A stretch of DNA of 64,000 nt from Meiothermus sp. (GTDB lineage Bacteria > Deinococcota > Deinococci > Deinococcales > Thermaceae): positions 931,803 through 995,802 of the forward strand of contig NZ_BPIJ01000002.1 of assembly GCF_026004055.1 (NCBI RefSeq), written 5' to 3'. The notes beneath the pieces were generated by a model. It searched no databases. It saw only the letters and a list, made by a program, of their open reading frames with translations, and was not told the origin of the DNA. Shown here in pieces: positions 31,227 through 57,663 of this stretch (position 1 is the first letter of the stretch; each line of letters opens with the position of its first letter). The position numbers and the translations under genes are program-made.

Positions 31227-31503
31227 CCGCAAACCACTTGGCCCTGCCAAGACACTGCTTATTTGCGAAAGCGTGTCCCACGAGAATACGATTCAGTTCT
31301 GGCTTGTCTAGAGGGTGCAACCCTCCAGTAAAAAAGCTCAGTGCCTTTCTAGACAGACTGTCTCGCTCGCAAATCAAAGCCGATTCGGCCAGAATTTTGA
31401 TTTGCGAAAACCGTTTGGCTGTACAATATATTAGCGTTCCAAACACGCAAGAGCTCTTTGACAAATAGTTATTAGAGGTGCCAAGTTGCTCGTTTTGAAC
31501 GCC
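31227..31503 (+). promoter_or_regulatory. CRISPR leader
   Basis: An A/T-richer 277-base stretch between cas4 and the first repeat. It contains TACAAT (31422-31427) followed by ATATTAG. It also has a perfect 12-base inverted repeat, TCGCAAATCAAA (31367-31378) and TTTGATTTGCGA (31396-31407), separated by 17 bases, and a further direct copy of ATTTGCGAAA at 31261-31270. These are candidate sites for leader transcription and for spacer-integration factors. The perfect repeats at this side and the degenerate last repeat show this is the leader end. Confidence 0.8.
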
Positions 31504-33891
31504 CTAGAAATGCTGTCCTCGAGCGATAGAGGACTGAAAGAGCCTGAGCCACAAGCCTTCCGCTAGGTCATCAGCTAGAAATGCTGTCCTCGAGCGATAG
31601 AGGACTGAAAGTACGGGAGCCCACCACCAGGCTGGTGGCAGTGAAGACTAGAAATGCTGTCCTCGAGCGATAGAGGACTGAAAGGGAAACAGGGTTGGCC
31701 GGGGAGCTGGCCCGAGATTGAACTAGAAATGCTGTCCTCGAGCGATAGAGGACTGAAAGTTCTCCTCCTCAGGCACGTCTATATCCTCGTCGCCCTCTAG
31801 AAATGCTGTCCTCGAGCGATAGAGGACTGAAAGGCGCACAACTCGTGCAAGCGCAATCGCCAGGGCTTTCTAGAAATGCTGTCCTCGAGCGATAGAGGAC
31901 TGAAAGTGTTACTGGCCGGTCTTATTGAGCGCTACTCCAAGCCTAGAAATGCTGTCCTCGAGCGATAGAGGACTGAAAGACTCCACGACTGCTCCAGAGT
32001 GTGCACCTTCTCGATCTAGAAATGCTGTCCTCGAGCGATAGAGGACTGAAAGTGCGGTATATCTGATCGAGCTGGAGACCCCTCTGCAACTAGAAATGCT
32101 GTCCTCGAGCGATAGAGGACTGAAAGGGGATTGGGTGTTTGTTGGCCTGGGTTAGGAACCGCTAGAAATGCTGTCCTCGAGCGATAGAGGACTGAAAGCG
32201 CCGTGACGGTTGCCGATTGGTTAGACGGACTTGCTCTAGAAATGCTGTCCTCGAGCGATAGAGGACTGAAAGTCACTCACCTTTTGCCAGCGGCGCTTGC
32301 GCGGGTCTAGAAATGCTGTCCTCGAGCGATAGAGGACTGAAAGACCCAACTACGAGACGTTGGAGCTGATCGATTATAGGCTAGAAATGCTGTCCTCGAG
32401 CGATAGAGGACTGAAAGGCACCTGCACATCGAGGGGCAACGCAACGGGGCCATACTAGAAATGCTGTCCTCGAGCGATAGAGGACTGAAAGGTGGTCGGG
32501 GGTTGCTGGCCACACCCCTATGGTTTATCGGCTAGAAATGCTGTCCTCGAGCGATAGAGGACTGAAAGGGCTACCGCCAATAGACCGGCGCAAATCGTCC
32601 AGAGCTAGAAATGCTGTCCTCGAGCGATAGAGGACTGAAAGGAGCAGCGGCCATCTCCAGCGTGGTGCGGGGGTCGGCTAGAAATGCTGTCCTCGAGCGA
32701 TAGAGGACTGAAAGGTGGAGCTAGAGACGTACTCCGTAGCCTGCCTGTGGACCTAGAAATGCTGTCCTCGAGCGATAGAGGACTGAAAGAGCGCAAACTG
32801 GAGCCTGCACGTCGCTTTGCAAGTAGCGAGCTAGAAATGCTGTCCTCGAGCGATAGAGGACTGAAAGAGGCAAAATCTTTCAGGTCTCGGTGCGGCAAGG
32901 GGGCCTAGAAATGCTGTCCTCGAGCGATAGAGGACTGAAAGTAGCCATCCACCGGCAGCGCATCGTAGTATGTCGGCTCTCTAACTAGAAATGCTGTCCT
33001 CGAGCGATAGAGGACTGAAAGATGCGGGCGTAGCCAATACCGGCGGGTACTGCATAGCTAGAAATGCTGTCCTCGAGCGATAGAGGACTGAAAGCACCGG
33101 TCAGCTTTAGGGCGATGGATTCAGCAGATTCTAGAAATGCTGTCCTCGAGCGATAGAGGACTGAAAGTTGACTATATAGTGCTATAAGGGATAGGCTACA
33201 TCTAGAAATGCTGTCCTCGAGCGATAGAGGACTGAAAGGCCGATGCCGGTGGCGATGACGCCACCGCCGGCTCTAGAAATGCTGTCCTCGAGCGATAGAG
33301 GACTGAAAGCTACGGTGCCCTGTAGGCCCCACAAGCCCTCACAAGCTAGAAATGCTGTCCTCGAGCGATAGAGGACTGAAAGCCGCAAGCGCCAAAGGCA
33401 TAACAAAGGCATCTGGTCTAGAAATGCTGTCCTCGAGCGATAGAGGACTGAAAGAGTCGAGGCGCAGGCCAGCGCGCTCAGCGCGAGCCTCTAGAAATGC
33501 TGTCCTCGAGCGATAGAGGACTGAAAGGATGGAATTGTCAGCGTCACAGCGCTGCTCGAGTCCTAGAAATGCTGTCCTCGAGCGATAGAGGACTGAAAGC
33601 GCCATCGGAGCCGCCGCTGAGAGAATAGGCGTTGCTAGAAATGCTGTCCTCGAGCGATAGAGGACTGAAAGGATCTGAGTAGTCTGTCCTATCCACAAGC
33701 GAGATTGCTAGAAATGCTGTCCTCGAGCGATAGAGGACTGAAAGTTGTATCCGTAGCGCACCAGGCTACGACATTGGTAGCTAGAAATGCTGTCCTCGAG
33801 CGATAGAGGACTGAAAGGGCGTGCGCCGCCAGGCCAGCCACCTGATTACCTTTCCTAGAAATGCTGTCCTCGAGCGATAGAGCACCGAAAG
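31504..33891 (+). CRISPR. CRISPR array, 33 repeats and 32 spacers
   Basis: The 37-base repeat starts CTAGAAATGCTGTCC, has the inverted arms GTCCTC and GAGGAC around GAGCGATA, and ends ACTGAAAG. Spacers are 34-43 bases, mostly 36. The first 32 repeats appear identical; the last (33855-33891) differs at two bases (GAGCACC instead of GAGGACT). Cleavage on the 3' side of the stem would give a tag ACUGAAAG, similar to archaeal type I tags ending GAAAG. Transcription from the leader side is expected. Each repeat contains the hexamer CTCGAG. No spacer was matched to a target by eye. Confidence 0.98.
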
Positions 33892-48259: not shown

Positions 48260-48805
48260 ATGAAGAGATGGTTGAGCCTGCTGGCTACCCTGGCTTTAGG
48301 CGTGGCGCTGGCCCAGGGAGGGCCGCCCAACATCACCCCGGAGATGCGGCAGCGCTTTGAGGCCTACCGCCCGGTTTTCGACCTGGTAGCGACTATTGGC
48401 CTGCTGGACGAGCTCGAGAAACAGCGAGGACTGGCTCTAACCAAAGCCCAGGCTCAGAAGCTCTTGCCCATTCTGCGCGACCTGCAAAACCGCACCGACC
48501 TGAAGCCCGCCGATGCCGGCAAAATTCTCTCCAACATCGAGGACAACATCCTGACCCCGGCCCAGCTCAAGTGGATAGATGAGACCATCCTCAAGCAAAG
48601 GGAGGAAGCCCGCCAGCGCCGCGAGGCCGGTGGGCAGAACCCCCAGGCGGGTCAGGGCAATTTCCAGGGGCCACCGGGGGGGCCTGGAGGCCGGGGCGGG
48701 CTCTTCCAGGCCATCGCCCAGGGCAAGCCCTACAACCCCTTCAAGGAGCAGCCCCGCGCCGCCGATAACCTCAAGAACCTGATTGCATTACTGAGCAAAA
48801 AATAG
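48260..48805 (+). CDS. Secreted hypothetical protein linked to the MacAB-like set
   Basis: 181 residues with a signal peptide (KRWLSLLATLALGVALAQ). The mature part has helical segments with KAQAQKLLPILRDLQNRTDL and LTPAQLKWIDETILKQREEA, then a Gly/Pro/Gln-rich linker (about 125-150). A helical periplasmic protein with this LTPAQ element recalls metal- or stress-related Spy/CpxP-like or efflux-associated helpers; this is a weak resemblance. GAGGAGGGAGC precedes the ATG. The 245-base gap before it has no recognised feature. Confidence 0.65.
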   Translation: MKRWLSLLATLALGVALAQGGPPNITPEMRQRFEAYRPVFDLVATIGLLDELEKQRGLALTKAQAQKLLPILRDLQNRTDLKPADAGKILSNIEDNILTPAQLKWIDETILKQREEARQRREAGGQNPQAGQGNFQGPPGGPGGRGGLFQAIAQGKPYNPFKEQPRAADNLKNLIALLSKK

Positions 48806-49016
48806 AGCGCTCTTCACAAATATTGAGCCATGGGGGACTAATGGTCTGGTAACTAAATTTCCGAAGTTATGTACCGCACACCGAATACATCGATGTAGAG
48901 ATTCCATCCCACTTCGGCCCTCGAGATGGCCTAAAAACGCCCTACCTACCGCGTAGGGAGGGTGGGGGAGGGTATCAGGCAAGGCCCCCAATCCGCTGCC
49001 AGGTCAGCCACCCCAC
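48802..49016 (+). mobile_element. MITE-like element family A, copy 3 (truncated) with flanking module
   Basis: 48802-48840 is the TAGAGCGCTCTTCACAAATA module. From 48840 the element matches full copies for about 175 bases, including the first GC hairpin, with an internal deletion of about nine bases near 49000, and stops after CAGCCACCCCAC. The right half and right inverted repeat are missing. The left boundary is the same as in copy 5. The truncation point lies in the LOG gene coding sequence. Confidence 0.8.
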
Positions 49017-49427
49017 ATGCACCCCCAGAGGCTTCTGGGGTTTGCCGTGCATCAAAGCAATGTGGTTCAGGTTCCAGGCCGCCAGGATTTCGGCTAAAGT
49101 GCCCACCCCGCCCGGCAGGGCCAGGCAGGCCACCCCCACATCGATCAGCCGCTCGATGCGGGTGAGCAGCGACGAGGAGGGTAGCTCCAGATCCACGTGC
49201 AGGTTGGGCCCATTGCGGTGGGGGAACAGGACGGGCGCGGTGATGCCCACCACCAGCCCGCCGGCCTCCTTGGCCCCTTGTGATACACCTTCCATCGCCC
49301 CGTTGTACCCGCCCGTAGCCACGCCGAAACCGGCCTCGGCAATGGCCCGCCCCCAGGCGCGAGCCACGGCAAAAGCCGAGGTGCCGGGTTGCACCCTGGA
49401 CGAACCAAACACAGTTACGAGTCGCAT
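48975..49427 (-). pseudogene. LOG-family protein, 3' end replaced by a MITE fragment
   Basis: 150 residues as read: MRLVTVFGSSRVQPGTSAFA at the start, then GFGVATGGYNGAMEGVSQGA (a GGY.GxMEA-like motif), FPHRNG, and LPGGVGTLAEILAAWNL, the PGGxGTxxE motif of the lysine-decarboxylase-like/cytokinin phosphoribohydrolase superfamily. The last 11 codons (WLTWQRIGGLA) come from MITE copy 3, so the native C-terminal helix is lost. TAGGCT lies six bases before the ATG on the minus strand (leaderless). It may still fold, because the catalytic motifs are kept. Confidence 0.75.
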
Positions 49428-57284: not shown

Positions 57285-57321
57285 TAGAGCGCTCTTCACA
57301 AATATTGAGCCATGGGGGACT
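57285..57321 (+). repeat. Flanking repeat module of MITE copy 5
   Basis: TTAGAGCGCTCTTCACAAAT, then ATTGAGCCATGGGGGACTA, as in 48802-48840, and inverted at 1036-1073. Confidence 0.7.
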
Positions 57322-57663
57322 AATGGTCTGGTAACTAAATTTCCGAAGTTTTGTACCGCACACTGAATACATCGATGTAGAGATTCCATCCCACTTCGGC
57401 CCCCGAGATGGCCTAAAAACGCCCTCCCTACCGCGTAGGGAGGGTGGAGGAGGGTATTAGGCAAGGCCCCCAATCCGCTGCGTGAAGGGCCAGGTCAGCC
57501 ACCCCACCTGGCCTCCCCTACGCAGTAGGGGAGGGAAGGGGCGAAGCGGGGTGGGGTGCTTTTTGCATGACCGTACAGGCAAGGCACCGAAGGCCCAGGT
57601 TTACGAGACACGGCGCGTTTTGAAGGCTAAACCCCATACTGCGTATTTTGTTACCAGACCACT
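57322..57663 (+). mobile_element. MITE-like element family A, copy 5 (342 bp)
   Basis: Full length. The left end is AATGGTCTGGTAAC and the right end is GTTACCAGACCACT. CTAA is present on both sides. Same orientation as the other copies, with the same left junction as copy 3. Confidence 0.85.

Follow-up and report, generated by a model that had tools for sequence, protein, structure and literature searches.

A LOG-like gene of Meiothermus whose C-terminus is read from a nested inverted-repeat element, probably after a deletion at a 12-nt word

The window, that is, the whole 64,000-nucleotide stretch of Meiothermus DNA analysed here, comes from an assembly of 3.18 Mb in 3 contigs and carries on its minus strand, at 48975–49427, a LOG-like gene (SLOG, LDcluster4) whose product of 150 aa consists of 141 native residues followed by TWQRIGGLA, which is read from a repeated element, A. 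Very probably this end arose in several steps: a second repeat, B, inserted into the stop codon of p181, the neighbouring gene in convergent orientation, A became nested in B, a deletion at a 12-nt word joined A to the gene, and a likely impaired product was the result. The order of these events and their fixation are deduced from one strain of the species.

First of all, the class of the gene should be made clear. The 150-aa protein exceeds the Pfam gathering scores of PF18306 (LDcluster4; 67.4 bits vs 26.3) and PF03641 (45 bits vs 27), and at this superfamily level the earlier, sequence-only reading was right to call the gene "LOG-family"; the name does not reach to the NCBIfam LOG equivalog NF058542 (cut-off 300), which is missed by the window protein (53.7 bits) and even by the intact ortholog of M. 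hypogaeus (50.7 bits). Therefore, "LOG-like" is the safe name, and LOG activity is putative. The closest solved structure is TT1887 of Thermus thermophilus (PDB 1WEH; query 1–142 against chain 1–139, E 1.6e-40), a protein of 171 aa with a C-terminal segment that the window protein does not have; Foldseek with the model of the M. hypogaeus ortholog also ranks 1WEH first and adds little beyond the sequence search. In named genomes close relatives of the gene lie at six loci, five in Meiothermus (e.g., M. hypogaeus and M. taiwanensis) and one in a Thermaceae bacterium. Orthologs were sought in 61 genomes including the own one, among them 17 of the same genus, and a match with E below 1e-70 was taken as a close ortholog. 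Such an ortholog is found in 13 of the 17; two of the remaining four contain a distant paralog only, and two give no match at E 0.001. The own genome gives a single match. Since four of 17 relatives are without a close ortholog, the gene appears dispensable in the genus.

When the C-termini were compared through the tblastn loci, the window protein was seen to track the 13 same-genus orthologs up to GWL (residue 141) and to diverge right after it into TWQRIGGLA and a stop, an ending found in none of the 13, while the orthologs all reach 174–182 aa. That is to say, 33–41 native residues are missing. The comparison with orthologs had been proposed as a check by the sequence-only reading, which held that the element had rewritten the end of the gene: all 13 are longer with a different C-terminus, a short ortholog without the element was not found among them, and the pieces of A and B give no blastn match in the 13 ortholog loci. 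The same reading placed the gene end inside the left half of an element whose right half is missing, and this is borne out, as 48842–49004 (+ strand) matches the left half of A. The part of the gene that certainly derives from the element is nine codons and the TGA stop (48975–49004); codons 138–141 are common to the gene and A, so that the count of 11 codons given earlier falls within a range of 9–13. To regard the 150-aa form as a short LOG variant of native origin, and its match to the element as a coincidence, is barely credible. L046, with WLEW at the position of divergence, shows that the family allows a W after WL, but every one of the 13 close orthologs runs on for its 33–41 residues; moreover, beyond the 12-nt word CAGCCACCCCAC the 30 nt of the nine codons and stop agree with A except for a 9-nt gap, and the agreement extends through A's left half.

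Element A is about 338 bp long, and its intact copies carry terminal inverted repeats, with TGGTCTGGTAAC at one end and the reverse complement at the other. In the window, intact copies start near 696, 2137, 54355 and 57324, and with 40 of 238 candidates scored the own genome gives at least 46 matches, of which at least 40 come near full length. A is thus present as many near-identical, dispersed short copies, which is the form of a MITE or nonautonomous TIR element. Its target is a 4-bp YTAR-type site, and the duplication of this site is seen as CTAG on both sides in L021, L025 and L028 and as CTAA in L001. A sibling family of about 205 bp carries A's ends (TGGTCTGGTAA) and often stands in tandem with A at a distance of about 4–5 nt (L190, L193, L198, L203 and L208 among others). 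Among the longest ORFs of 20 loci, no transposase was recognised by eye. Among the matches listed for other genomes, a near full-length A occurs in one relative, G008, while several others show just the inner tract of about 113 bp; this tract is a common repeat in other genomes of the genus (G004, G006 and G015) at about 70–89% identity. Another repeated sequence of the window is a CRISPR-like array at 31480–33818, with at least 31 copies of a repeat of about 37 nt at a spacing of about 73 nt.

The fragment of A does not stand alone. Directly before it lies the left end of repeat B (48803–48841, + strand), which reads TA followed by GAGCGCTCTTCACAAATATTGAGCCATGGGGGACTAA and includes the CTAA target of A at 48838–48841. 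The pattern of this left end has 62 matches in the own genome, against 0 for a reversed control pattern, and 56 of the 62 read TAGA. In general, B begins as TA plus GAGCGCTCTTCACAAATAT and ends as TGTGAAGAGCGCTG plus TA; in L064 and L084 the inverted ends are flanked by TA, with TA and GAGCGCTCTTCACA on the left and TGTGAAGAGCGCTG and TA on the right, and on these two loci B is a MITE with a TA target. What follows the internal CTAA site of B in the 62 copies is A in either orientation in 38, a cassette C in 10, the continuation of B in 13 and another sequence in 1. One copy for comparison lies in the window itself, at 57287–57661 (+ strand), where a left end of B leads into an intact A (57324–57661). 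At the locus under study the order is p181, left end of B, left half of A, LOG-like gene, and the fragment described earlier is therefore the rest of a nested pair, from which the right part of B is absent. The sequence-only reading put the start at 48840, but the repeat tract as a whole already begins at 48803; repeat B, its place in the p181 stop codon and the missing YceI-like gene X had all been overlooked.

The neighbour p181 (48260–48805, + strand) has its full native length of 181 aa. B starts exactly in its stop codon (48803–48805), which reads TAG and is made up of the TA target and the first G of B. The convergent arrangement of p181 and the LOG-like gene is shared by 12 of the 13 ortholog loci, with 0, 1 or 2 genes between them, and the p181 orthologs stop with TAG in 10 cases and TAA in 2. 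A YceI-like gene X (PF04264) lies between the two genes in eight of the 12, accompanied in one of the eight by a further gene; in the other four X is absent from this place. Two of those four (L032 and L035) have the start of X joined to its end at CCGCCTCGAG, and the intact X of L033 and L034 carries CCGCCTCGAG on either side of the part that was lost. Repeat-mediated deletion thus appears to recur at the p181/LOG locus. A close copy of X was not found in the own genome (best E 9.7e-4, 31% identity). X was probably lost in the deletion that produced the fused gene or before it; as four of 12 relatives are also without X, the loss may have come earlier.

The junction itself is marked by the 12-nt word CAGCCACCCCAC at 49005–49016, which is common to A and to codons 138–141 of the LOG-like gene. 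Read on the + strand, the word can be assigned to either of them, and from 49017 on the sequence belongs to the gene only. The whole word is present in three of the 13 orthologs (L032–L034), at codon 141, and there it is the longest word that A and the LOG coding sequence have in common in the same orientation; at the junction site L037 shares 11 nt with A and L036 shares 9 nt, while in the other eight orthologs the longest common word is 8–11 nt and lies elsewhere in the gene or in A. After codon shuffling of L032, 22 of 1000 sequences gave a word of at least 12 nt in common with A anywhere. Because a word common to A and the gene marks the junction, as a deletion between short direct repeats leaves it, such a deletion is the likely origin of the join. 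The earlier suggestion that a deletion removed both the right part of the element and the native end of the gene is supported in this way, as it fits a word shared by both at the junction. Events of this kind can be seen at other places too: two further copies of A, those in L071 and L085, carry internal deletions, and the BLAST pieces on the two sides overlap by about 12 and 8 nt. One detail is left unexplained by a single-step model, namely that the copy of A at the locus is without the 9 nt CGTGAAGGG just before CAGCCACCCCAC; 9 nt stand at this site in all 54 other readings from the fetched own-genome loci (overlapping loci counted twice) and in the 4 other copies of the window.

Two other origins of the junction have to be weighed. 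A or A+B might have been inserted directly into codon 141 of the LOG-like gene and lost its other half later, with no repeat-mediated deletion; such elements do lose parts, and the end state would look similar. The observed junction, however, is internal in A, at about position 173–184 of 338, and not at an inverted-repeat end, and the left end of B lies in the p181 stop codon and not in the LOG-like gene, so that direct insertion is improbable. Still less probable is an assembly artefact, i.e., a collapse or chimeric join caused by the repeat. With at least 40 near-complete copies of A in the genome such an error is conceivable; but the assembly has only three contigs, the unique sequence on either side is that of p181 and LOG, the neighbours to be expected, and the word at the join, with its 12 nt, is much shorter than the repeat.

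With these alternatives set aside, the favoured course of deletion after nested insertion may be described as follows. The TA-target element B, with its inverted repeats, would first have landed in the p181 stop codon, where its position is directly visible, and the stop stayed TAG because B begins with G. Next, A would have settled in the CTAA site of B through its YTAR-type target, a structure that can be read at the locus and recurs in 38 of the 62 copies of B. A deletion running from CAGCCACCCCAC in A to the matching 12 nt at LOG codons 138–141 would then have removed the right half of A, the right part of B, the intervening DNA (probably with gene X) and the last 33–41 codons of the LOG-like gene. 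At present the gene runs through nine codons of A to a TGA stop, and its product keeps the catalytic motifs but is without the C-terminal end of the fold, which suggests impairment.

As for the product, the motifs GGYNGAMEG and PGGVGTLAE (105–113) are both found in the 150-aa protein, just as the sequence-only reading had noted. Arg90 and Glu113 are retained at a spacing of 23, and PGGVGTLAE matches the motif PGGXGTXXE, with Glu113 as its last Glu. For the Corynebacterium LOG Cg2612 (PMC4979012), the motif PGGXGTXXE and a catalytic pair Arg99/Glu122, likewise spaced 23, are given, and in these respects the window protein resembles it. The C-terminal part of the Rossmann fold is incomplete by the residues that the 13 orthologs possess beyond the junction, and a model of the M. 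hypogaeus ortholog, of low confidence, places two predicted helices in the lost segment. The AlphaFold2 models of the 150-aa protein and of this ortholog, built on 7 sequences with a mean pLDDT near 54, give rough secondary structure only. Pairwise dN/dS between the window gene and its five nearest relatives is 0.07–0.13, against 0.02–0.14 among those relatives; on the terminal branch there are 5 nonsynonymous and 8 synonymous changes vs 8 and 32 for the five others taken together (Fisher P = 0.27). Neither the pairwise values nor the branch counts give a significant signal of relaxed selection, and since a recent truncation would leave no such signal, dN/dS neither proves nor excludes function. 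E21V and A47G in the window protein are changes at positions invariant in the 13 other orthologs.

On this evidence the fused protein could be functional and kept with its new C-terminus, a reading which is compatible with the course of events above and differs from it in the last step only. The low dN/dS, the retained Arg90, Glu113 and PGGVGTLAE and a frame without internal stops speak in its favour; but the protein has lost the segment with the two predicted helices, members of the genus can do without the gene, and E21V and A47G touch invariant positions, so that this outcome is possible and yet doubtful. Because the C-terminal end of the fold is gone, though the catalytic motifs are kept, we lean towards a product that is impaired.

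The landing of B in the p181 stop is not a single case. In 11 of the 62 copies the left end of B lies exactly in the stop codon (TAG) of a convincing gene: p181 (48803–48805), L130, L133, L082, L083, L087, L077, L075, L069, L061 and L063. Nine of these genes have Pfam matches, p181 has orthologs, and L063 lies outside the Pfam scan; in four of the nine no more than 7 residues separate the end of the match from the stop. For PntB as for GlpD, the protein end falls on the same residue in 17 of 17 relatives, and one PntB relative (L162, G004) has a B-like sequence in the same stop codon. In two further relatives (L163 and L164) a cassette C-like sequence (TACCAGATTCGGTT or near) directly follows the pntB stop TAA. 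By eye, two more open frames that run in frame 0 up to B, L139 (216 codons) and L090 (116), were taken to be spurious and stand outside the 11, and the long frame-1/2 cases L088, L078 and L120 were judged in the same way.

If the frames are counted without such judgement, those open for at least 200 codons to the B end number 11, 0 and 0 of 62 (stop frame and the two others), and those open for at least 100 codons number 13, 8 and 6. When 3587 TA sites of the window are tested, genes included, the 200-codon share is 8.7 percent for the stop frame and 7 percent for each of the other two. For tolerated sites only, with 34 stop-codon TAs vs 323 intergenic ones that count in two orientations, the share is 5 percent, or about 3 of 62 expected, an expectation taken with a crude gene caller from one 64-kb window; against it, 11 of 62 has P 2e-4, and P 0.04 if the true fraction is 10 percent. 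A stop-frame reading of at least 150 codons leads into 2 of 43 right ends of B, which would destroy the stop, vs 12 of 62 left ends. Selection against landings elsewhere must account for some of this bias. Because the left end starts with G, a B that lands in the TA of TAA or TAG in the right orientation would rebuild TAG at no cost to the host. Whether B can be called a "stop-codon squatter", which accumulated in stop codons, carries A and C as passengers and puts recombination-prone DNA at gene ends, with the LOG fusion as one consequence, is in our view evenly balanced.

The LOG fusion belongs to a known kind of event, the change of gene ends by small elements. In Coxiella burnetii, according to PMC5896051, the small inverted-repeat elements QMITE1 and QMITE2 lie at the 3′ ends of functional genes, as A does here, and the C-terminal 33 aa of enhC in strain Dugway presumably come from QMITE2. 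In those cases the end was changed by insertion or indel, whereas in the window a deletion between 12-nt words in element and gene would be responsible, and A is nested in a second element. The short repeats Correia/NEMIS, RUP, ERIC and RPE, as outlined in the review PMC2229807, mostly have inverted ends and TA termini, and some are fused into reading frames; the likeness is one of description, A having a YTAR-type and B a TA target. The open-licence literature yielded no description of the Meiothermus elements A and B, and in the available part of a Thermus insertion-sequence paper (PMC6352166) MITE occurs only in a program name and "stop codon" is absent.

In summary, the locus offers a base-resolved case of the rewriting of a bacterial gene end, through a tolerated landing in the stop codon of a neighbour, nesting, and probably a deletion at a 12-nt repeat. 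If the bias of B is genome-wide, it would follow a simple rule, in which the end base of the element and its TA target together make a stop, and this would suggest how compact genomes may be filled by small elements without damage. The same rule could be tested in any TA-target family.
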